49,483 bases of DNA from positions 1-49,483 of the forward strand of contig JAMPEW010000022.1 in assembly GCA_023664775.1 (NCBI GenBank), written 5' to 3'. Below the pieces are notes generated by a model, which ran no database searches, had not been told where the DNA came from, and saw nothing but the letters and a program-made list of their open reading frames with translations. A program made the position numbers and the translations under genes. Below are positions 1,005-39,662 of this stretch, in pieces. The DNA is from Clostridium sp. (GTDB taxonomy: Bacteria; Bacillota; Clostridia; Lachnospirales; Lachnospiraceae). The number at the start of each line of letters is the position of its first letter. The first letter of the stretch is position 1.

Positions 1005-1457
1005 TTAATTCGAGGATGCCCGTTTTATTCCCATAAATTCCTTTATGGCGCAGTATTTATCTGCAAAGCACACCAAAACAGCCTCCTTCGATTTTGGCAG
1101 ATGCGTTATGTTGAGTGGCCACATATGGCTGTAAATAATGTTTTTCTCCATGGACGATAAGGAATACAATGACATTGCATTTTTAAGTGCAGTTTCCGCA
1201 TGCTTAAAGCCATGCCTGTAAGCACTTACCTCGCCGCTCTTTGTATCATATAGAAAATAATCATGCAGCATTGCACCTCTTGCCAGTGCCGCTTCATTTA
1301 TATTCAATCTCAGCTTCTTTGATATTTTGTAGCTTGTTATGGCAACATTTCTGCTGTGGTCAAACCTCGTTGTAACACGGTGCTGTTTAAAGCTTTTTAG
1401 TATGGATAAATTCTCATCATTTTGCAGTCCATCCAGCACATCATAAAATTTTTTCAC
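1005..1457 (-). CDS. HD-domain protein (probable phosphohydrolase)
   Basis: 150 residues forming a compact HD domain: His in FDHSRNVA (about residue 33), the HD pair in AMLHDYFL (about 65-66), a later His in GFKHAETA, and an Asp in CFADKYC (about 133) would supply the metal ligands. Similar short HD proteins in Clostridia are annotated as phosphohydrolases; the substrate is unknown. The start is a GTG (1455-1457) preceded by GAGGG. The gene stands alone, convergent with the XRE gene and divergent from the Mur ligase cassette. Confidence 0.8.
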   Translation of the reverse strand: MKKFYDVLDGLQNDENLSILKSFKQHRVTTRFDHSRNVAITSYKISKKLRLNINEAALARGAMLHDYFLYDTKSGEVSAYRHGFKHAETALKNAMSLYSLSSMEKNIIYSHMWPLNITHLPKSKEAVLVCFADKYCAIKEFMGIKRASSN

Positions 1458-1664
1458 CTTATGCCCTCACTCTCATAACCATTAAAAGATACAACTATTA
1501 TAACAGCAGCCTGTCCATTTTACCATAGGAAAAATTATTCATTTTTTGCAAAAAAACATTTTTTGGTTTTTGTGGATATACTTTATAATTATATGGATAA
1601 TTCTTACAATTTGTGGTAAAGTAATCTGTGGTTAATTTTTATTATTTTACAAGAGGACACATGA

Positions 1665-3026
1665 ATGAAAAAAACACTGCGTTTTAGATTTGCATTATTG
1701 ATAGGAAAAGCCGCATACAGAACGGGAAAGCTTCTTAAAATGAATGCCAGCCATTTTCCGGGAAGGCTTGCCATAAATTTGTGTCCTGATTTTTTGGGAA
1801 GAATAGACAAGCCGGAAAAAATTATATGTGTCACGGGAACAAACGGAAAAACGACTGCCTGCAACATGATATTGGACGTGCTTTCTGATTGCGGCTATGA
1901 TGTACTAAACAATAAGGCAGGCTCTAACCTGAATGCAGGCATTGCTACGTCGCTGCTGTCCCATGCAACCCTAGGAGGCAAGGTAAAACATAGGCTTGCC
2001 CTTTTTGAGGTGGACGAGCGCAGCTCCAAATTAATTTATCCGTTTATTCATCCTGACTATGCAGTATGCACAAATCTTTTTCGGGATTCCCTGCAGAGAA
2101 ATGCACATACGGAATATATATTTAATCTAATCTCAGACCACATTCCAAAGGACACGCACATGATTTTAAACGCTGATGATGCCATAAGCGCCAGGCTTGC
2201 CCCTGATAATGAAAGAACCTACTATTCTATCGCCCACATGGAAACCGACCATGATGGGGATATAAATATTATAAACGATGCAAGAATATGTCCAAAATGC
2301 TATCATCTGCTGAAATACAATTATATAAAATACCATCATATCGGAAATGCATACTGCCCTAACTGTGGCTTTACATCACCCGAAAGTGATTATGCCGCCC
2401 TGCCCGACTTTGATGCAGGGACCATTACCGTTAAGCACAGCGAGGTTGACGAAACATATCCACTTATTACGGACAGTATTTTTAACACATATAATCAGGT
2501 TACGGCAATTGCGCTTCTGCGGGAGCTTGGGCTTTCGCCTGCGGAGATTTCCTCCTCCTTTGCCAAGGTAAAGGTGCTTGAAACGAGATACTCAAGCAAA
2601 AAGGCAAAGAGTGTTGAGGTTATTACCCATCTTTCTAAGGGCTTTAACCCGATAGCCTGCTCATGTGTATTTGAATTTGTAAGCAGACAGCAGGGCGAAA
2701 AAGAGGTTATACTGATGCTGGGTGACATTTACGGTCACTCCCACTCTCCTGAAATTGTTACATGGATGTATGACGCTGATTTTGAATATCTCAATCAGCC
2801 TGACATAAACCACCTTATCGTATGCGGCGAACGGTGCGAGGATTATAAGCTGAGGCTTCTTCTTGCAGGTGTTTCTGAGGACAAAATAACATGCGTTCCC
2901 GATGAAACAAAGGCGCATGAATATTTGAGACTTGACAAAACCGAAAAAGTATTTATACTTCATCAAGTGTATGCAACTAATGCAGCAGCCGCTGCACAAA
3001 ATAAGATTATTGACAGACTTACGTGA
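1665..3026 (+). CDS. MurT-like Mur ligase family protein
   Basis: 453 residues with the MurT layout: Mur ligase central domain with P-loop GTNGKTTAC (about 58-66), a four-cysteine zinc ribbon (ICPKC ... YCPNCGF, about 209-234) inserted as in MurT, and the C-terminal DUF1727 region ending in the WMYDADFE motif. In Staphylococcus and Streptococcus, MurT with GatD amidates the D-glutamate of lipid II. This copy is divergent: the DRFGE stretch usual after the conserved NFFRDQ reads QRNAHTE, and the segment that normally gives the Asp completing the glutaminase triad (ADGRDTSW) reads GHSHSPEIVTW. The start follows AGAGGAC. The GatD-like gene begins 13 bp downstream. It is probably a paralog with another substrate, not necessarily the housekeeping MurT. 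Confidence 0.85.
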   Translation: MKKTLRFRFALLIGKAAYRTGKLLKMNASHFPGRLAINLCPDFLGRIDKPEKIICVTGTNGKTTACNMILDVLSDCGYDVLNNKAGSNLNAGIATSLLSHATLGGKVKHRLALFEVDERSSKLIYPFIHPDYAVCTNLFRDSLQRNAHTEYIFNLISDHIPKDTHMILNADDAISARLAPDNERTYYSIAHMETDHDGDINIINDARICPKCYHLLKYNYIKYHHIGNAYCPNCGFTSPESDYAALPDFDAGTITVKHSEVDETYPLITDSIFNTYNQVTAIALLRELGLSPAEISSSFAKVKVLETRYSSKKAKSVEVITHLSKGFNPIACSCVFEFVSRQQGEKEVILMLGDIYGHSHSPEIVTWMYDADFEYLNQPDINHLIVCGERCEDYKLRLLLAGVSEDKITCVPDETKAHEYLRLDKTEKVFILHQVYATNAAAAAQNKIIDRLT

Positions 3027-3039
3027 GGAGGCATAGGAT

Positions 3040-3756
3040 ATGGCGGAAAATATAATCATTGAAACACTTTATCCTGAATTTGCCAACTTATTCGGCGATT
3101 TGATGAATACGGGATATTTAAAAAAATGTATTCCTGACGGAACATTTATAGATACAAGCCTTTTTGATACGCCTGCATTTGTAAGTCAGGATGTGTCAAT
3201 GGTTTTCATGGGTGCCATGTCGGAAAAGCAGCAGGAGCTTGTCATCAATGCTCTCACACCCTACAAGGAGCGCATAACTGAGCTTATCGACAAGGGCTGT
3301 ATCTTTCTTATGGCGGGAAATGCCATGGAAATATTTGGTACTTATATTGAAAATGAGGATAAAAGCCGTATCGACTGCCTCGGCTTATTTAACACGTATG
3401 CCAAACGGTTTATGTTTAACAGGCACAATTCATATATATTAGGTGAATTTCAGGATATGCAGCTTTTAGGCTTCAAATCCCAATTCAGCCACTCCTACGG
3501 CGATAACTCTGACTGCTATTTTTATAAGGTGACGACAGGGTGCGGTATCAACCCTGACGTAAAGCTTGAGGGGCTTAGAAAAAACAACTTTTACGGAACG
3601 TACACCATCGGTCCGTTCCTTATATCAAACCCTCTGTTTGTAAAGTATCTTATGAAGCTTATGGGGATTGAAAATCCAAGGCTTGCATTTGAAGATACAA
3701 TTATGAGCGCCTATAACAGCAGGCTGAAACAATTTGAGACATTTAAACCACACTGA
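3040..3756 (+). CDS. GatD-like glutamine amidotransferase fold, catalytic residues lost
   Basis: 238 residues that align along their length with GatD, the glutaminase partner of MurT: VFMGAMSEKQQ matches the usual FIGGGSDREQ, GCIFLMAGNAMEIFG the nucleophile elbow, and GTYTIGPFLISNP the GTYLHGPILPKN segment. The nucleophile elbow normally reads LTICGGYQ; here Gly93 stands where Cys94 of S. aureus GatD is. The catalytic His (YLHGP) is replaced by Ile190 (YTIGP). The protein should therefore be unable to hydrolyse glutamine and may act as a structural or substrate-recruiting subunit. It starts 13 bp after the MurT-like gene with GGAGG upstream, so the two are surely cotranscribed. Confidence 0.8.
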   Translation: MAENIIIETLYPEFANLFGDLMNTGYLKKCIPDGTFIDTSLFDTPAFVSQDVSMVFMGAMSEKQQELVINALTPYKERITELIDKGCIFLMAGNAMEIFGTYIENEDKSRIDCLGLFNTYAKRFMFNRHNSYILGEFQDMQLLGFKSQFSHSYGDNSDCYFYKVTTGCGINPDVKLEGLRKNNFYGTYTIGPFLISNPLFVKYLMKLMGIENPRLAFEDTIMSAYNSRLKQFETFKPH

Positions 3757-3815
3757 GTAAAACGGACATACAACACATAGAAGAAATATAAATGTTAGGA
3801 AAAGAGGTAACAGCT

Positions 3816-5057
3816 ATGGAAATGAAAGAGGTTTTTGAAACATACGAATCCAATGTACGTTCATATTGCAGAAGCTTCCCTGAGGTATTTGCAAGGGCAA
3901 AGGGTTCCATTATCACTGACGTAAACGGAAAGGACTATATAGACTTTTTCTGTGGCGCAGGAGCCGTAAACTACGGTCACAACAACGATTACATCAAGGG
4001 CAAAATAATCGAATACCTTGAAAATGACGGTTTCCTTCATGCCCTTGACATGATGACGGACGCAAAGGCAGGCTTTATCGACACATTTCAAAATAAAGTG
4101 CTGAAGCCAAGAGGACTTGACTACAAAATTATGTTCCCTGCCCCTACAGGCACAAATGCCATAGAGGCAGCGCTTAAGCTTGCAAGAAAGGTTACAAAAC
4201 GCACAAATATATGGTGCCTCATGGGCTGCTTCCATGGTATGACACTCGGGGCGCTTTCACTGACTACCGACAGAACCGACAGACAAGGGGCAGGACTTCC
4301 CCTTACAAATGTCACGCATATTCCTGCGCCGTATATGTTTGAGGAATTAGATACGCTGAACTATATGGAAACACTTATGGAGGACGACCATTCAGGCGTT
4401 GACAAGCCTGCTGCATTTATAATTGAAACCGTACAGGCAGAAGGCGGTATATATGTTTTCAGCAATGAGTGGCTTCAGGGTGTCAGGGCATTTTGTGATA
4501 AATACGACATTCTTCTCATTATTGATGACATACAGGTTGGCTGTGCACGTACAGGCACATTCTTCTCCTTTGAAAGAGCCGGTATTCAGCCTGACATCCT
4601 TGTTATGTCAAAATCAATCGGCGGCTATGGGCTTCCGTTTGCCGTTACCCTCTTTAAGCCTGAGCTTGATATATGGCTTCCGGGCGAACACAATGGAACC
4701 TTCAGAGGAAACCAGCTTGCAATGGTTGCCGCAAAGGCAGGTCTTGAGTTTATGCTTGACAATAACATTGAAGCAGAGGCAAAGCGCAAGGAGAAGGTGA
4801 TACGTGATTTCCTTGAAAAAAATGTTGCCCGTGACGGTATTAAAATTCGCGGCATCGGTTGTATCTTTGGAATTGATGTGGGAACGGGCGAAAAGGCATC
4901 GGCAATCTCAAGGGCGTGCTTTGACAGAGGGCTTATCATTGAGCTTGCGGGCAGAGATAACAGCGTTGTTAAACCAATGCCTGCCCTTACCATACCTGAC
5001 GACACGCTTATGAAGGGACTTCAGATTATCAAAGAGGCTGTAGACGAGGTAATGTAA
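3816..5057 (+). CDS. Class III aminotransferase, EctB-like (diaminobutyrate--2-oxoglutarate transaminase type)
   Basis: PLP-dependent fold-type I enzyme. Long stretches match EctB-type L-2,4-diaminobutyrate transaminases: YIDFFCGAGAVNYGHNN, LKPRGLDYKIMF, PTGTNAIEAALKLARKV, LLIIDDIQVGCARTGTFFSF and PGEHNGTFRGNQLA. The PLP lysine is in MSKSIGGYGLP (Lys266 from this start). EctB converts aspartate semialdehyde plus glutamate to 2,4-diaminobutyrate; ectA and ectC, needed for ectoine, are absent here. An upstream in-frame ATG at 3792 has only a weak site, whereas ATG 3816 has AGAGGT at good distance, so I prefer 3816. It is third in the MurT-like/GatD-like cassette (59 bp gap), which suggests that its product feeds the ligase. 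Confidence 0.85.
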   Translation: MEMKEVFETYESNVRSYCRSFPEVFARAKGSIITDVNGKDYIDFFCGAGAVNYGHNNDYIKGKIIEYLENDGFLHALDMMTDAKAGFIDTFQNKVLKPRGLDYKIMFPAPTGTNAIEAALKLARKVTKRTNIWCLMGCFHGMTLGALSLTTDRTDRQGAGLPLTNVTHIPAPYMFEELDTLNYMETLMEDDHSGVDKPAAFIIETVQAEGGIYVFSNEWLQGVRAFCDKYDILLIIDDIQVGCARTGTFFSFERAGIQPDILVMSKSIGGYGLPFAVTLFKPELDIWLPGEHNGTFRGNQLAMVAAKAGLEFMLDNNIEAEAKRKEKVIRDFLEKNVARDGIKIRGIGCIFGIDVGTGEKASAISRACFDRGLIIELAGRDNSVVKPMPALTIPDDTLMKGLQIIKEAVDEVM

Positions 5058-5060
5058 CTT

Positions 5061-5144
5061 AGAGATGGGCAGTCCCTTGAACTCGTGCACAGTCATACCG
5101 CTTAGCTGCATGGCTGTGTACGATTCAGGGAATTGCCCATCTCT
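5061..5144. repeat. Long palindromic hairpin between convergent genes
   Basis: The arms AGAGATGGGCA...CACAGTCAT (from 5061) and ATGGCTGTG...TGCCCATCTCT (to 5144) pair over about 36 bp with few mismatches. There is no T-run on either side, so it is not a textbook terminator, although it sits exactly between two convergent genes and covers part of the stop codon of the S41 peptidase gene. Confidence 0.75.
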
Positions 5145-6801
5145 ACTGTCCCTCTATATACTCCCTCGCATATTCCATCAAATAATCCTCGCCAGCCTCG
5201 AACATGGAGGCAACTGCCTTCTCATCAAACGGCACTTTCACGTCTAATGGAATTGTTGCTTGCCTTGATGCATCTGTATCAATGTATATGGTGCCATCCT
5301 CCCTAAGCGTAGGCACCGATGAAAACTGCAAGGCTCCTTTTTCAAACGTCACGCCTTTTATCGCCTGCCCTGAGCAGTTTGAGGACGTAAAGCCCATAAT
5401 CGTCACATTATCATAAATGCTCATGATATCAGCAAAATGGTCGCCCGCACTTACTGTGCCTGCGCTTACCAAAATTACAATCTGTCCGTCGCCCCACACA
5501 CTTTCCCCTTCATATGCAATTTCATTTCCAGGAATATACCTTCCTGTCGCTTCATCATACTGATAACATTTTTCCTTCTCGTCCCACACGCTGTCATATG
5601 CATACTGGTGTTCTCCCTCCGGTGCAAGAAGCTCTGCAATGGCAAGAATAAAATTAGGGTCGCCGCCGCCATTGTTCCTCAAATCAATTATAATATTTTT
5701 TATGCCCTTTTCCTGAAGGGCAAGCATATTTTCCCTTACTTCTTCCTTCATAGCGCTGAAGTTTCCTGTCGTTGAGGAATTGGTATCATACATCATAAGC
5801 GTTAAACGCAGGATACAGGTATCATCACTAAGCTCATGCCATGTCACATTGTCGGCTTTTATTCCGTCTGCCAGTATACTCATTGTCCTTTCAAGCCTAT
5901 CAGCATATGCCCCAAGCTTTTCGGCACTCACGCTATGCTCTGTCCCATCCTCGCCTATAAACTTTATTGTAACACTATCACCGCCTGCTCCTGCGGCAAA
6001 AACAGCTCTATAGAAATCTTCGGTTTCCTTGACAGGATTGTATGGCATACCGTCATAATAACCGATTTCAACATCATTGATAACCGCCTCTACATTCCTG
6101 CCGTCCCACTCGGTTATAACCGTACCGTTTCTGATACCCGCATTGTAAATGTCACTGTCTTTTTCCACATTTACTGCAACTGTTTTTCCGTCAGAGCGTG
6201 TCATAAGAGAAAGTCCGTAATCATTTCCGTACATAATCTCGTGCGCCTTCTCTAAAACATCCCTATCATTCAGCGAATATGCCACATGTCCGTCATGGAA
6301 ATTACAGCAGAATTTTGTCCACAAAATATAATTCTCCACGGCATCATGCTTTTTTTCCACCTCCTTGAACTGTGGTTCATATTCCTCATAAAGCGCATCC
6401 CAATCAATGCCCTTGTGTTCTGCAAGACAATAATGCTCCTGCATTGCATCAAAGCCCTCCTTAAATTCCTGAAGGTAGTTTGGCGCTCTATATCCTTTAT
6501 ATAAATTACATACTAAAATGCTTGGGATAATGAGCAGCACCGCAATTGCAGACGCCAGCCTGCGCAGCTTAGCTTCTTCCCTTGAAAAACCAATCAAAAG
6601 AACAATGACTGCTATATAAACGCTTAACAGTGATATTTCCTCACCTGTAAATGCAATGAATGCCATACACACAATCAATGGAACAACATACAAAAGCTTC
6701 CATTTCGTACTTTTCACCTTATCCGCATAATCTGCAAGGAAGTAAAGCCCAATGGAAAAAGCAAGCTCTATCAATATCAAATACAAATCACTTTTTATCA
6801 T
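5143..6801 (-). CDS. Membrane-anchored S41 family peptidase
   Basis: 552 residues. The first about 100 contain three to four hydrophobic segments (about 5-24, 36-52, 57-71, 83-99), then an outward-facing part: the FHDGHVAY motif (168-175), a PDZ-like stretch (194-240), the DLRNNGGG motif (373-380) and the nucleophile region SAGTVSAGDHF with Ser451. The Lys of bacterial C-terminal processing peptidases is not seen (GFTSSNCSGQ), so it resembles the tricorn/IRBP-type branch. It is last in an operon behind two ABC permeases (11-bp gap), with TTAGGAGG before the ATG. It may process a peptide exported by that transporter; this is inference. Confidence 0.85.
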   Translation of the reverse strand: MIKSDLYLILIELAFSIGLYFLADYADKVKSTKWKLLYVVPLIVCMAFIAFTGEEISLLSVYIAVIVLLIGFSREEAKLRRLASAIAVLLIIPSILVCNLYKGYRAPNYLQEFKEGFDAMQEHYCLAEHKGIDWDALYEEYEPQFKEVEKKHDAVENYILWTKFCCNFHDGHVAYSLNDRDVLEKAHEIMYGNDYGLSLMTRSDGKTVAVNVEKDSDIYNAGIRNGTVITEWDGRNVEAVINDVEIGYYDGMPYNPVKETEDFYRAVFAAGAGGDSVTIKFIGEDGTEHSVSAEKLGAYADRLERTMSILADGIKADNVTWHELSDDTCILRLTLMMYDTNSSTTGNFSAMKEEVRENMLALQEKGIKNIIIDLRNNGGGDPNFILAIAELLAPEGEHQYAYDSVWDEKEKCYQYDEATGRYIPGNEIAYEGESVWGDGQIVILVSAGTVSAGDHFADIMSIYDNVTIMGFTSSNCSGQAIKGVTFEKGALQFSSVPTLREDGTIYIDTDASRQATIPLDVKVPFDEKAVASMFEAGEDYLMEYAREYIEGQ

Positions 6802-33650: not shown

Positions 33651-36600
33651 TTAATGCTTCTTTTGTTTTTTAATAACAACAACCATACCTGAAACGGAAA
33701 GCAGCATTACAAATGCCAAAACTGCAATCGGAGCCTCATCGCCTGTATTCGGTGACTGTGCAGAGCCAAGGTATGAATACTGCGGCTTAGAATTATTGTT
33801 TGTAATAAGCGGCGGTGTAGGTTCAGGATTATTCGGATTATCTCCGCCTCCAGGATTGTCACCAGGATTATCAGGGTCAGGATTACTTCCGCCACCTACA
33901 CTATTTGCAGTAAACCATGCTGAGATGATTGTATCCTTTGTAATCTTAGAATAATCCGTATCCCAGCCTGAGAAGGTATATGTATACTTATCTGTTGCCG
34001 TCTTTCTCGGTGTCGTAACAGGCGGCGTTGCGCTGTTGCCGTCCGTAACAGTTTCAACCTTCATTGTATTGCCATCTCCATCCTTCCATGTAACTGTATA
34101 GGATCTTGGTGCTGCGTCTACCATGTAAAGCGCATAGATGGAGAACCTGCTTGTTGTTATCGCTATATAATCCTCCGCAAGGACAGCATCATCATCTGAC
34201 CAGTTAATAAACTGGGCATTATTTCCTGTTCCATGCATGGAAGCAACTCCAATCTTCTGATTGGAAAGTTCGCCTAACGGAAATGCAACTGTAATCGGCT
34301 TTACAAGTCTTGTAACATCTTGTGTATACATAACCCGACCATCAGCATCCTTTACCGTCTTAACAACATTAAGCTCTATATATCTGACAATCACATTATT
34401 CTTTCCTATGTTATTTGCAAATACGCCCTGTGTTGTATCACTTACACTTGCTACGTCAAGGTAACCTGCATACAAGGTTACGTCAATGGAAGCACCATTC
34501 TCATCATATTCCTTCCAGTCCTCCTCGGTAATAACCGCCGTGTAATTTCTGTCAAAAACCTGGTCAAGCCCATCTGCCGCAACCCTTACAGCACCGTCCC
34601 GCAGTACCATATGGGTGGAAAGATTGCTTAAAATAAAGTTTACGCCATTATTTGTAATATAGTCAGTCGGATATACAACGGCGCCATCTTCCACAATAAC
34701 AGCCTTCGTCTGTGTATGCGTTCCGTCTGTTGCGGCAATTCTGTATGTTCCATCTGAAATGTTTGTGAAATTATAGTCGCCACCGCCAACATCCAATTTC
34801 TTGCCTGCTATATAAGTATTGCCATCAAACAGTGATACATATATCGGTTCATCAGCAGAAATTCCATATGCATATTTTACGTTTCCGTAAACAGCAGTTG
34901 TCGACTTGCCGTCCCCTGTCCGAAAGCTTCCCTCTACAGTTTTTGTTTCCTTTGAGGTCTTCGTAACGGCATAAACCCTGTACTCATAAACCGTATCAGG
35001 TAGAAGGTCCGTAAACTCATAATCAAGGCTTGCACCGTAGCTTTGTGTACGCTTATTTGCAGGAGCAGTTTCATAATTCGTCGTTCCTGCCTTTCTATAT
35101 GCAATATAGTAATTGGAAAGACCATACGTGCCCATATAAATTTTTGCGTCTATTTTTGCGCCTGTGGACGTAATATCCGTAATCGGGCTTACGCTCATTG
35201 CAAGAGGCACAAATTCAAGCGTAGCAACATTTCCTGCCATGTCCTCAACAGTAAGCTCATAGGAGTCTGCGTCTGCTGCAAGAAAGCTTCCCATAATTGT
35301 ACCCTCATTCTCACTTACAATTAAGGTATTGCCGTTCAGCTTCACAGAATTAATATTAATTCCACTTACCCTATCATATGCCTCAAAGTTTATTGTCACT
35401 CTGCCCTCAGCGTCAACCAATGACTCCTTCATTTCTATCACAGGCTTGCTTAAGTCTACCTTTATATTTGCTGTTGCATGGCTGCTCGGTTTACTGGTAT
35501 CGCTTACAGCCCATGCATCAATTGTAATATTACCCTCGTCAGCTAAATTGAAATCCTTTTGTGCCTGAGAAAATACATCTGTATCTTTCTTTTCGCCGTT
35601 TACGATTGCATAGTGTGTTCTTACAGGTATCTTATCCTGCTCCGTAATTGTTGTTGACCTGATTGTAATTGCAGGCGCCGTCTCAACATACCAGCCATTT
35701 TTACCCTCAGTTCCGTTTACCTCAATTGTAGGCGCAATCGGCGCTTCATCAGAAATTCCACTGAAGCTGATCGTCTTTTCAGCACTATTTCCCGCCTTAT
35801 CATATGCAACAATCTTGTAGTTACCATTGTCTAAAATCTGATAGTTGCGGTACATGAAATATCCTTCATCTTCCTTTGGTAAGAGCGTCTGGGTCAGCTT
35901 TTCATAAGTTCCGCCAACCTCCTTAAAGAGCTCAACCCTTGAAATCTGACTTTCACCCTCGCCCTCAGTTACGTTAAACTCTAAAAGCTTACCTACCTTC
36001 AGGCTGTTAGGATCGTCCTTTGTTATATTCTCAATAACAGGCGGCTTACAGTCAAGCTTAAAAGGTCCTGCCGTATTTAACTCTGCCACATTTCCTGCAT
36101 TATCATACAGAAGTCCCGTCGCAGAATATGTGCCGATCGGAAGCTCAGGATCCTGATATGTAAGCTTAAAATCCTTTGAAATTACCTTGCCATATGCAGT
36201 AGCATATTTAAAGTCATTCGGACTATCATCCACTATGGTTTTTGTTGTACCGTCAGGCAGTGTAACGGTCCATTCTATTTTATTCAGTCCACTGTCATTG
36301 CCAGTCAGACTTTCGTCGGTTGCACTTGCAACGAAGGTTACTCCATTGTACCAGATATCCTGATCCACAATGGCATAGCCGTCTACAGTTGTAGCCGTAA
36401 TTGTTGCCTTTGGCGGTATATTTTCAACCATCCATTCATAATAATTTTGCGGTGTATTTTTACCGTCATAGTCTTCCGTTGTGGCAGTTACGACTTTTTT
36501 ACCATCCACCTCCGTTGTTTCAATCTTAAGCTTAATCGGATCAGAATCATTGCCCGTAGTGTCCGTCGCATATACAATAAGCTGTCCACCATCGCTTGTT

Positions 36601-39600
36601 CCAATCGAAATTGTTGCGTCTGCATACCATACATTATTATATGTATCATGAATAGGATTTACAAAATCAGTAATTCTATCCTTATCAATCTCATAAAATC
36701 CATTTTCGTCAACATAGCGGTAATGAAGCTCCGCAGGAGCACTGCCTTCTGACGAATACTTAATGGTAATCGTCATATTTGGAACCTCAGCACCGTCAAT
36801 TTGCTGCGAATGGTAATAGGAACCAAAATTAAACGCATTAAAATACGGAAGATCAGGCGACACAGTATGCGTCACATACTCTGGTCCTGTGGTGTCAATG
36901 CTAAGCTTAACATTTTCTATCGTTGTCACGGCTCCTGACTTCGAATTAAGCATCTGGAAACGGAATGTCTTATCTATGTAATTAATATCCTTTCCCGTAA
37001 AATCAATGGTAGGCTTAAATAAACCACTGTTCACCACTTTGTTCTCATCAAAGTCAAACACATCATCTTCATCGTCCTCCAAAAGCCTTATCAGGTCATA
37101 CCCACCACTTGCAGTTATAATAAGTCCCGGATAAACACCATTTGGAGCAGGCTCCCTGTCAAATTTATAGTTTACGTCCTTTTGGGCTACATCTCTAGTA
37201 ACCGTAAAGCTGCTTTCTACGCCTTTGCTGTCAACTGCATAATTAGATGGATTGGAAAAATCTGCTTTTATCGTATACACCTGCGGCATGGACAAATATC
37301 CCTTGTATTTTTCCCAACTGGTTACCCAATCCGTAAATCCAAGGTACTCTCTTGCAAACGCCTCATCACTTACACGATTATTATAAGCGGTCTTATCAGC
37401 TTCTATGAGGGTTGAAGTATCAATATTTAATTTGAATTTTGGTCTATCCTCACCAAATAAAATCGGATCTTTGCCATTCGTTTCCTTCTCCACTGTCACC
37501 GTAATCGCTCTTGGCGTAATCTTACCTATATTCAGCGTACAGCTTCCTCCAGGTTCAATTTCTGCCCCTGTTGCTTTATCACGAAGAACATAATAATCAA
37601 GCAGGTCAGAGTTTTTCGGTTCAAGATTAATATTGCTTATTGTAAGTGGTTTCTTCTCTCCTGCATTCGCATTATCAAAATACGCTTCTTCGTTAAATGT
37701 AATATAAAGAACCTCGCCATCATGATCAATTGCTTCCAGCACCTTGCCTTCAGGCCTAAGCTTAATCGTATTTATGCCATTATACTGCTTTGTAGGTGGT
37801 TTTTCGCCCTCAGCATCAAATATGGAGTCTTCATCTATAAATATTTCCTTTTTTTCAAACTTAAATATAACTGTACAGTATGTTACCTCAGCAGCACCAT
37901 GTTCATTTATGGAATTGTTATCTGTTATTTTAAGCTCTATCTTCGGTTCGCCGGTTGCCGTAACCTTGTGTGGCAATGTTAATGGATACCCTATCATAAA
38001 GCCATAAATTTTAGTTTCATCCCCACTAACTATATAGTTACGTATCTCTATACCATATGGTTGTATATTTCCCGATAAAACTTCGCAGGTAAAGTTAGCG
38101 CTTAGACCCGGCTTGTTATCAGTCGCATATGCAGGATAAAAGTCACCTATGATTTCCTGTCCATACTGCGCTGTTATGACTAAATTACCAGCTTCGTCAT
38201 ATGATACAGCACTACCTCCTCCTGCAACTTTAATATTAGATACAAGCTTGACTTTTTTATACGTCCATATTGCTTCAAGGCTATTGCCCGTAACATTTAT
38301 TTCATCCGTAACATTAGCTGAACGTGTACAAAGCAAGCTTACAGATACCGTTTCACCAGGATCATATATCTCCTTAGTGACAGTATCTCTCCAACCTGTA
38401 AGCTCATATCCGTCATTTTTTACCCATGCTTTCATTTCTTCCTGAGAAGGAAGTGTAATTGTATCGGTATATTTAAGATTTTCCCTTTTTTCTACCTTTT
38501 CTTTTCCATCTAAAAGCTCCATAAAGCTAAATCCATCAGGCTGTGCGTCAAGCGCAATCGTTATATTATCAACAGGTTCAAATGCAGCACTAACATACAC
38601 AGCGTTACTGCTGCCATCAGGATTTATCTGATTGGCTCCGGTACCTTTTGTAATTGTATAGGCGCCGTCTGCAACCGGAGTCGTCCCACTGAGCAGTCCC
38701 ACATATTTATATCCCCATTTTCCAATTTTACCTGCCGCCCAATCCTTGTTTGGAACAATAAATTGGATTTTATCATCTATGACATCTAATGAATTATATG
38801 TTACGTGATTTTCTTCTTCACCACTTAAGCCATTCGTTATAATAACATCATATTTGGTTCTTTTTGCTTTAACGTAAAGCGACAGTCCTCCCTGTCGTAA
38901 ATGACTGTCAGTAGTCAGAATTTTGTCCTCTGTTACCGGCTCAGTAAATTTTGTATCAAAATATAAATCTGAAATTTCCAACCCATCTATACTATCTATG
39001 TCATATATTTGCTTGGCAATATATCCCTTCGTAACTGTTGCTCTAACGGCAGCAATATCATAGTAGTTTCCATCAGCAGATTCTGTAAGCGGTATGCCAC
39101 TCTCATAAGGAATTGAATACACAAGACTATTACCATCCGTTGTGCCATTTGAGTACACTCTGAATACCGCAAGGGACATTTTAGGAAATTCATATGTATC
39201 ATTTGCACTATACAAATCATATTCCTGACTTATAATCTCACCGTTTTCACCATACTGACTGTCAATGAGGTTTGTGTTTATGCTATCGTCTTTTTCTTCA
39301 TATATATCAAGATTTTCAAAGTCTCCCTCGCCTGTCTGCAGGTCATCGGAGCCAAAATTATTGTTATCTCCACTACCATTTGCATTATCCACATTCACGG
39401 TGTCCGTGCCTGATGCAGTATTAGACGCACCCGCAGAAGATGATGTATCTGCAGACGAGGTCAGAAAAAGCGATTGCGTTATAAGCATAACCATAACCAT
39501 GGCTGACGCAACAAGCTTCTTTCCATTGCCCTTTCCCCAATATACTGCATGAGAAATAGCGCTGATAACCGCAACCAGCGCAAGTGTAGGATACACAAGT

Positions 39601-39662
39601 ATTCTATGTTTCTTGCCGACCTCCAATAATTTTCTTATAAGTTTGTCTTTCAGATTCATCAT
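33651..39662 (-). CDS. Giant sortase-anchored surface protein (2003 aa)
   Basis: The N-terminus has a basic stretch and two hydrophobic segments (about 20-41 and 46-66), the second followed by an export-like boundary, then a Ser/Asn/Asp-rich stretch. The long middle (about 130-1480) looks like beta-sandwich repeats of bacterial Ig type, many ending in forms such as YKIVAYDKAGNSAE or YSATGLLYDNAGN. A fibronectin type III domain lies at about 1490-1582, a carboxypeptidase-regulatory-like segment at 1590-1655, and an InlB-type repeat (YTFSGWDTDYSKITKDT) at 1850-1919. A Pro/Gly/Asn linker leads to the sorting signal SPNTGDE (about 1969), a membrane segment and KKQKKH. ATG 39662 and ATG 39659 are both near GAGGTGG. 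Adhesion or matrix binding is likely; the ligand is unknown. Confidence 0.9.
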   Translation of the reverse strand: MMNLKDKLIRKLLEVGKKHRILVYPTLALVAVISAISHAVYWGKGNGKKLVASAMVMVMLITQSLFLTSSADTSSSAGASNTASGTDTVNVDNANGSGDNNNFGSDDLQTGEGDFENLDIYEEKDDSINTNLIDSQYGENGEIISQEYDLYSANDTYEFPKMSLAVFRVYSNGTTDGNSLVYSIPYESGIPLTESADGNYYDIAAVRATVTKGYIAKQIYDIDSIDGLEISDLYFDTKFTEPVTEDKILTTDSHLRQGGLSLYVKAKRTKYDVIITNGLSGEEENHVTYNSLDVIDDKIQFIVPNKDWAAGKIGKWGYKYVGLLSGTTPVADGAYTITKGTGANQINPDGSSNAVYVSAAFEPVDNITIALDAQPDGFSFMELLDGKEKVEKRENLKYTDTITLPSQEEMKAWVKNDGYELTGWRDTVTKEIYDPGETVSVSLLCTRSANVTDEINVTGNSLEAIWTYKKVKLVSNIKVAGGGSAVSYDEAGNLVITAQYGQEIIGDFYPAYATDNKPGLSANFTCEVLSGNIQPYGIEIRNYIVSGDETKIYGFMIGYPLTLPHKVTATGEPKIELKITDNNSINEHGAAEVTYCTVIFKFEKKEIFIDEDSIFDAEGEKPPTKQYNGINTIKLRPEGKVLEAIDHDGEVLYITFNEEAYFDNANAGEKKPLTISNINLEPKNSDLLDYYVLRDKATGAEIEPGGSCTLNIGKITPRAITVTVEKETNGKDPILFGEDRPKFKLNIDTSTLIEADKTAYNNRVSDEAFAREYLGFTDWVTSWEKYKGYLSMPQVYTIKADFSNPSNYAVDSKGVESSFTVTRDVAQKDVNYKFDREPAPNGVYPGLIITASGGYDLIRLLEDDEDDVFDFDENKVVNSGLFKPTIDFTGKDINYIDKTFRFQMLNSKSGAVTTIENVKLSIDTTGPEYVTHTVSPDLPYFNAFNFGSYYHSQQIDGAEVPNMTITIKYSSEGSAPAELHYRYVDENGFYEIDKDRITDFVNPIHDTYNNVWYADATISIGTSDGGQLIVYATDTTGNDSDPIKLKIETTEVDGKKVVTATTEDYDGKNTPQNYYEWMVENIPPKATITATTVDGYAIVDQDIWYNGVTFVASATDESLTGNDSGLNKIEWTVTLPDGTTKTIVDDSPNDFKYATAYGKVISKDFKLTYQDPELPIGTYSATGLLYDNAGNVAELNTAGPFKLDCKPPVIENITKDDPNSLKVGKLLEFNVTEGEGESQISRVELFKEVGGTYEKLTQTLLPKEDEGYFMYRNYQILDNGNYKIVAYDKAGNSAEKTISFSGISDEAPIAPTIEVNGTEGKNGWYVETAPAITIRSTTITEQDKIPVRTHYAIVNGEKKDTDVFSQAQKDFNLADEGNITIDAWAVSDTSKPSSHATANIKVDLSKPVIEMKESLVDAEGRVTINFEAYDRVSGININSVKLNGNTLIVSENEGTIMGSFLAADADSYELTVEDMAGNVATLEFVPLAMSVSPITDITSTGAKIDAKIYMGTYGLSNYYIAYRKAGTTNYETAPANKRTQSYGASLDYEFTDLLPDTVYEYRVYAVTKTSKETKTVEGSFRTGDGKSTTAVYGNVKYAYGISADEPIYVSLFDGNTYIAGKKLDVGGGDYNFTNISDGTYRIAATDGTHTQTKAVIVEDGAVVYPTDYITNNGVNFILSNLSTHMVLRDGAVRVAADGLDQVFDRNYTAVITEEDWKEYDENGASIDVTLYAGYLDVASVSDTTQGVFANNIGKNNVIVRYIELNVVKTVKDADGRVMYTQDVTRLVKPITVAFPLGELSNQKIGVASMHGTGNNAQFINWSDDDAVLAEDYIAITTSRFSIYALYMVDAAPRSYTVTWKDGDGNTMKVETVTDGNSATPPVTTPRKTATDKYTYTFSGWDTDYSKITKDTIISAWFTANSVGGGSNPDPDNPGDNPGGGDNPNNPEPTPPLITNNNSKPQYSYLGSAQSPNTGDEAPIAVLAFVMLLSVSGMVVVIKKQKKH

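Follow-up and report, generated by a model that had tools for sequence, protein, structure and literature searches.

A MurT/GatD-type pair without glutaminase residues, linked to an EctB-type transaminase in Clostridia: a candidate diamino acid ligase for peptidoglycan

The combination of a Mur-type ligase with an inactivated glutaminase and a diamino acid-producing enzyme may have given rise to a new way of modifying the bacterial cell wall. Such a cassette occupies positions 1665 to 5057 of contig JAMPEW010000022.1 (assembly GCA_023664775.1, Clostridium sp., Lachnospiraceae), a stretch of 49,483 nucleotides that we call the window. It encodes a MurT-like ligase, a GatD-like protein and an EctB-type transaminase. 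We favour, with moderate confidence, the reading that the cassette makes a diamino acid and joins it to a peptidoglycan precursor, the amino acid being D-2,4-diaminobutyrate (D-DAB) here and D-ornithine (D-Orn) in branch B of the same clade of ligases. The initial annotation of this DNA had described the three genes and suggested that the ligase couples diaminobutyrate (DAB) or another amine; our analysis confirms the finding and gives it more weight than it first had. The features concerned are as follows.

1665..3026, plus strand: MurT-like ligase of 453 aa, with Mur ligase middle domain, Cys4 zinc ribbon and MurT C-terminal domain
2019..2021, plus strand: MurT Arg119 codon, a marker of the clade described below (mostly Ala in canonical MurT), computed from the open reading frame (ORF)
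2754..2756, plus strand: MurT Ile364 codon, at the position of Staphylococcus aureus Asp349, third residue of the catalytic triad
3040..3756, plus strand: GatD-like protein of 238 aa, with glutaminase fold and both catalytic Cys and His absent
3316..3318, plus strand: GatD Gly93 codon (S. aureus Cys94 position), computed from the ORF
3421..3423, plus strand: GatD Arg128 codon, aligned with the glutamine-binding Arg128 of S. aureus
3607..3609, plus strand: GatD Ile190 codon (S. aureus His189 position), computed from the ORF
3797..3807, plus strand: purine-rich ribosome-binding site for the EctB start at 3816, read by eye
3816..5057, plus strand: EctB-type diaminobutyrate--2-oxoglutarate transaminase of 413 aa (421 aa with the alternative start at 3792)

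The open reading frames confirmed this arrangement and its gaps of 13 bp between MurT and GatD and 59 bp between GatD and EctB. The second figure is counted from start 3816, which has the better ribosome-binding site as read by eye; from the start given by the ORF finder, 3792, the gap is 35 bp.

The identity of the ligase is well supported by profile and structure comparisons. The window MurT scores 85.6 bits for MurT_C (cut-off 25) and 42.8 bits for Mur_ligase_M (cut-off 24) in Pfam, and retains the annotated P-loop, GTNGKTT, together with the zinc-ribbon cysteines C209, C212, C231 and C234. Its closest solved relatives are the S. aureus MurT chains (E 1.8e-53), and MurT chains are also the best structural matches of its predicted model (mean predicted local distance difference test, pLDDT, 82.9). 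The weak matches to the pMurC, MurF and MurC families all fall under their cut-offs. The partner protein is recognizably GatD-like (E 2e-10 to the S. aureus protein). Its GATase_3 score of 24.4 bits lies below the cut-off of 27, and its AlphaFold model (pLDDT 88.6) superposes on S. aureus GatD (5n9m, 6gs2) with a template modelling (TM) score of 0.85.

In S. aureus, the glutaminase triad is shared between the subunits, GatD providing C94 and H189 and MurT providing D349; mutants C94S, C94G and D349N are described as having lost lipid II amidation, and C94A, H189A and R128A as having lost glutaminase activity (PMC6113224, PMC5871853). Arg128 of GatD binds glutamine, and G60 and G95 are the oxyanion glycines (PMC5871853). 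The whole inter-subunit triad is replaced in the window, by Gly93, Ile190 and MurT Ile364, and the change from Cys to Gly is of the same type as the C94G mutation that inactivates the S. aureus enzyme. The absence of glutaminase residues from GatD had been annotated; the loss of the MurT aspartate had gone unmentioned and comes in addition. Arg128 is retained, and the oxyanion glycines are replaced by Met60 and Asn94. Because the defining catalytic residues are absent, the label of lipid II isoglutaminyl synthase is inapt, and the NCBIfam equivalog scores stay under their cut-offs for both subunits (201.8 and 180.3 bits against 800 for MurT; 55.1 against 400 and 45.3 against 450 for GatD).

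A comparison across the class revealed that this loss is widely shared. It drew on 99 related genomes (one of them, G049, not read), including the 37 genomes of the window's genus with its own, and on a survey of 212 Clostridia genomes with MurT_C. From the latter, 60 stretches were taken, chosen mostly for low scores; the resulting loci come from 47 of 48 low-scoring genomes (G168 excluded) and nine others, which biases any estimate of how common dead pairs are in the class. Five named relatives (L170, L171, L172, L174 and L189) came from a scan with a generic P-loop pattern, among the matches listed. We call dead a GatD that lacks the catalytic Cys, His or both. Among the relatives, 41 GatDs were read, 38 dead and three canonical, and in the window's genus every MurT/GatD pair read is dead. 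In total, 131 MurTs were collected, 87 with a dead GatD, 35 with a canonical one and nine for which our script found none, although one of these nine (L139) does carry an annotated GatD. In a FastTree phylogeny of 128 of them (L060, L089 and L113 left out), 84 partners of dead GatDs form a single clade with a support of 100, and the dead state requires three changes on the tree. Both Cys and His are missing in 83 of the 84 clade rows; the remaining one, L110, is unreadable at His. The clade divides into branches A (44 rows, the window among them), B (22) and C (18). Dead GatDs beyond the clade occur in L124 and L125, as well as in L113, which is absent from the tree; in L125 (3401-6526) the pair, whose GatD lacks Cys and His, adjoins a FemAB-type gene.

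The genome of the window contains a second MurT/dead-GatD pair on another contig (L059:141-3283, G000:C49), followed by an ATP-grasp gene of family PF14397, and the MurT of that pair lacks R119. The same trio recurs in L053-L058. A third MurT match was not found in this genome, which is 95.9% complete, and the search for a second, canonical murT-gatD suggested by the initial annotation thus yielded only this dead pair.

The old active site of the clade shows new conservation in place of the residues it lost. Arg119 of MurT is present in 71 of the 84 clade rows and in none of the 35 canonical rows. The clade has lost D144 and Y146 of the canonical MurT active-site loop. Each branch shows N146 in 72-100% of its rows, and the Glu that every canonical row has at position 148 has given way to His in most rows of branch A and all of branch C, with an acidic residue retained in branch B. 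Branch A GatDs (41 rows) conserve G93, N94, E97, E62, F47, P45 and L114 at 88-100% (N94 at 98%, E97 at 88%, E62 and F47 at 100%) and R128 at 95%. Branch B GatDs (22 rows) have another fixed set, E123, D132, Q146, I147 and Y166, each at 100%. These patterns, read from aligned sequences, suggest that the old site of GatD and MurT is not drifting and has acquired a new ligand, beyond the loss of its ammonia source. Simple decay of a canonical pair was considered and rejected, the replaced positions being conserved anew across a deep clade.

The third gene bears on the nature of that ligand. The window EctB exceeds the TIGR02407 cut-off (573.5 against 552.2 bits), which bears out its annotation as a diaminobutyrate-type transaminase; enzymes of this family make L-2,4-diaminobutyrate from aspartate semialdehyde. 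EctB (at least 53% identity) is present in 19 of the 99 relatives: 15 of 17 with a branch A pair, three of four with branch C, none of eight with branch B, none of the three whose canonical pairs were read, and one other (G052). The expected co-conservation with the pair was thus found, EctB occurring in 18 of 21 relatives with a branch A or C MurT against 1 of 78 others, and within the genus in 16 of 18 against 0 of 19. Since these genomes are related, Fisher values overstate the association; on the gene tree the EctB label takes five changes, at least four of them forced by well-supported branches. Of the 17 branch A relatives, the window's genome included, 12 have the gene directly behind the dead-GatD pair and a thirteenth (L048) has it one gene away on the opposite strand, a recurrence that goes beyond chance. 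In L171, a metagenome-assembled genome (MAG) of an uncultured Oscillospiraceae, it stands immediately upstream of the pair. All 14 EctB-linked cassettes read (window, L036-L042, L045, L048-L051, L171) encode a GatD without Cys and His. Both outcomes that the initial annotation had named as refuting its hypothesis were therefore absent. The dead state is nevertheless not specific to such cassettes, since it defines a large clade, which corrects the initial picture; the coupling of DAB or another amine is supported by the patterns of partner genes.

Racemases follow the branches in a similar way. Within the genus, strong matches to ornithine racemase (Orr) occur in all eight branch B genomes, adjoining the pair each time, and in none of the other 29. 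At the class level, they occur in 13 of 14 branch B genomes (the exception being G425) against 6 of 43 others. If the ligand of branch A were D-DAB, EctB genomes should require an extra racemase, and weak earlier matches had hinted at such genes; a search for second racemases served as a test of this idea. A second gene of alanine racemase type (Alr) was found in 12 of the 13 EctB/branch A genomes of the genus and in none of the other 24, two matches in G011 being taken as one gene split between contigs. It adjoins EctB in L050 and L051 and lies between GatD and EctB in L048; in the window's genome (L285:4251-5438) it is solitary on another contig, and its 154.5 bits fall short of the cut-off (168). 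For branch A, this distribution favours D-DAB over L-DAB. DAB, the substrate first proposed, is thereby implied for one branch and becomes one of at least two implied substrates, D-Orn being the other, if the inferred chemistry holds. In addition, the same four gene families lie 3' of MurT-GatD-EctB(-Alr) in L049 and L051 and of MurT-GatD-Orr in L068-L071 and L073, as if one cassette had replaced the other at a single site.

Branch C offers a different picture. Where EctB occurs in this branch, the genome has a single alanine racemase, and EctB is followed by an ATP-grasp gene (L250:6807-9089, L251:7961-10322 and L252:3357-5972), assigned to PF14397 by Pfam in L250 and by the resemblance of their starts in L251 and L252. 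L-DAB or a two-step addition would thus be possible there. Other branch C pairs adjoin genes for asparagine synthetase (AsnB; L061, L063) or diaminopimelate dehydrogenase (L062, L064).

Canonical MurT acts on peptidoglycan, its target being the alpha-carboxyl of D-Glu2 in lipid I or II, and several neighbours fit such a context. All six f77 loci of branch B have a GlmM-like gene no more than two genes after the pair, and in three of them a GlmS-like gene comes after it; in G033, EctB lies between GlmS-like and MetG-/MurA-like genes, all these gene names having been assigned by reading. Type B walls contain DAB and Orn, with D-Ala-D-Dab and Gly-D-Glu peptides described in one of them (PMC4156110, PMC11382707), and the peptidoglycan amino acids of Eubacterium limosum are given as Ala, Glu, Lys, Orn and Ser (PMC4791908). 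Two branch B genomes, G186 and G478, are probably Acetobacterium woodii and E. limosum ATCC 8486, respectively; both carry Orr, and their MurE has the motif DNPA rather than DNPR.

From the lost triad, the predicted fold, the conservation across the clade and the partner genes, we infer a reaction, its acceptor, the chirality of the amino acid and a binding role for GatD. EctB would supply L-DAB from aspartate semialdehyde, and an Alr-type enzyme encoded elsewhere in the genome would convert it to D-DAB. MurT would phosphorylate a carboxylate at the expense of ATP, most likely the D-Glu2 alpha-carboxyl of lipid I or II, which an amino group of the diamino acid, instead of ammonia, would then attack. 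The GatD-like subunit would hydrolyse no glutamine; the amino acid is probably bound in its old pocket and handed to MurT from there. Branch B would run the same reaction with D-ornithine. D-Glu would end up carrying a diamino acid, as a substituent or cross-bridge of the kind found in type B peptidoglycan, and the pair is a candidate enzyme for forming type B cross-bridges.

This proposal combines features of several known systems. With the MurT/GatD isoglutaminyl synthases of S. aureus and Streptococcus pneumoniae, the window pair shares gene order, both folds, the P-loop, the zinc ribbon, the MurT C-terminal domain and GatD Arg128; it differs in the missing catalytic and oxyanion residues, in the remodelled MurT loop and in scores far below the equivalog cut-offs. 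In activating a carboxylate with ATP for an amino acid to attack, it would resemble the Mur ligases MurC-MurF and the pseudomurein ligases, from which it is distinguished by its MurT C-terminal domain and GatD partner and by scores under all their cut-offs. Its probable mode of action is that of a Mur ligase whose acceptor is a wall precursor. The window EctB resembles that of ectoine synthesis in exceeding the TIGR02407 cut-off but is linked to MurT/GatD. Type B peptidoglycan, with its diamino acid on the D-Glu alpha-carboxyl, corresponds to the predicted product, whereas the MurE of the window's genome is of the DNPR type.

Other explanations have to be weighed against the proposed ligation of a diamino acid. 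We consider it rather unlikely that the ligase adds something other than D-DAB to D-Glu, be it L-DAB or another amino acid, or that it serves another acceptor such as a wall polymer, with involvement of the PF14397 ATP-grasp ligase. The three branch C genomes with an ATP-grasp gene right behind EctB and a single alanine racemase, the PF14397 gene beside the second pair of the window's genome, and the diaminopimelate dehydrogenase or AsnB beside other branch C pairs all speak for this possibility; the second racemase of branch A fits a D-amino acid, and GlmS-, GlmM- and MurA-like neighbours fit peptidoglycan. D-Glu might also still be amidated, with free ammonia as the nitrogen source, GatD as a structural partner and EctB as a metabolic hitch-hiker. 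S. aureus MurT/GatD is indeed described as using free ammonia at pH 8.5, with GatD still required (PMC6085368). The new conserved residues of the MurT loop and GatD pocket, which do not look like drift, weaken this reading, and the tightness with which EctB, Orr and the second Alr follow the branches is hard to reconcile with it, so that we judge it unlikely even though the gut is rich in ammonia.

Two further alternatives appear far less probable. EctB might serve a separate product, such as ectoine or a nonribosomal peptide or lanthipeptide compound, and owe its place in the operon to accident. EctB is best known from ectoine synthesis, for which TIGR02407 is named, but none of the 37 genomes of the genus, the window's own included, has a match to ectoine synthase (PF06339), and ectoine synthesis was rejected as a role on this ground. 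Moreover, EctB recurs on either side of the pair and in different families, which leaves an accidental association very improbable. It is at least as hard to believe that GatD is a regulatory pseudo-enzyme and that another cellular glutaminase delivers ammonia for amidation. A glutamine-hydrolysing AsnB does follow the pair in L061 and L063, but these are just two near-identical rows among the 84 of the clade, and EctB, Orr and the second Alr would be left unexplained.

Several observations count against the ligation of D-DAB or D-Orn to peptidoglycan as we propose it. One concerns the wall itself. The MurE of the window's genome has the DNPR motif, as it does in the branch B members of the genus, and we take this motif to indicate meso-diaminopimelate (meso-DAP) at position 3. 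Described type B walls have a non-DAP residue there, and we know of no type B wall with meso-DAP; in the organism of the window, a wall with meso-DAP in that position would have to carry a diamino acid on D-Glu as well. The partner genes also show exceptions. EctB is missing from three branch A or C relatives (G004 and G029, both incomplete, and G038) and is present in G052, which has no MurT/GatD match; beyond the window's family, it adjoins the pair in 2 of 21 branch A loci (L042, L171), where only adjacency was counted. Orr is also present in 5 of the 91 relatives that lack branch B, all beyond the genus. At the class level, five of the six non-B genomes with Orr fall into a single family, f26, whose pairs belong to branch A, so that a link to DAB alone does not hold for this branch. 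Five of the second-Alr matches (G000, G009, G014, G034 and G036) lie below the family cut-off. At the residue level, 13 of the 84 clade rows, nine of them in branch C, still have the MurT Asp349 that the other 71 have lost, and branch B GatDs mostly have Val at 128 in place of Arg while keeping the oxyanion glycine G60. Finally, the only pair read from Microbacteriaceae, which lies on a Leifsonia plasmid, is canonical.

Going further, a wider reading can be put forward tentatively, as one we find plausible while holding it short of probable. A clade of Clostridia MurT/GatD pairs would have lost its glutaminase once and become amino acid ligases, the glutamine pocket turning into an amino acid site, with D-DAB (branch A) or D-Orn (branch B) placed on the D-Glu alpha-carboxyl. 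These enzymes would be the missing type B cross-bridge ligases of Clostridia, and the genus would possess an undescribed wall with meso-DAP in position 3 and an additional diamino acid on D-Glu, which an exchange of cassettes would change from DAB to Orn or back. We know of no enzyme that initiates type B cross-bridges, and among the matches listed from open-licence PubMed Central, no title or abstract opening linked DAB, ornithine or a dead glutaminase with MurT or GatD. If the reading is true, what was once an ammonia-releasing glutaminase now probably serves as a substrate-binding subunit. With a defined gene pair, a substrate predicted for each branch and cultivable species, the question is directly testable. 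It may also bear on the host, whose NOD2 senses muramyl-dipeptide; substitution of D-Glu alters that part, and gut species may differ in what they present to NOD2.

Around the cassette, both flanking genes lie on the opposite strand, one for an HD-domain protein upstream and one for an S41 peptidase downstream. Scans of positions 1400-5200 gave 15 promoter sites against 9.4 +- 3.1 in shuffled sequences and four terminator sites against 3.8, and neither result was used as support. Elsewhere in the window, the minus strand holds an open reading frame of 2003 aa (33651-39662) without any Pfam match at E 1e-5.

Further MurT relatives illustrate the diversity of this family. Homologues beside which the script found no GatD-like neighbour (L089, L106, L177, L179, L186, L188 and L190) include Gastranaerophilales and Coriobacteriaceae MAGs. 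A degenerate MurT-like protein without P-loop (L060:4432-5415, G088) is encoded immediately upstream of EctB. On the Leifsonia plasmid, the canonical MurT/GatD pair (L136:8001-10950) adjoins a gene for an M15 peptidase predicted to be VanY-like. Natural fusions of MurT with a dead GatD were encountered twice, as proteins of 717 aa (L043:6716-8869) and 727 aa (L045:3611-5794), the latter followed by EctB.

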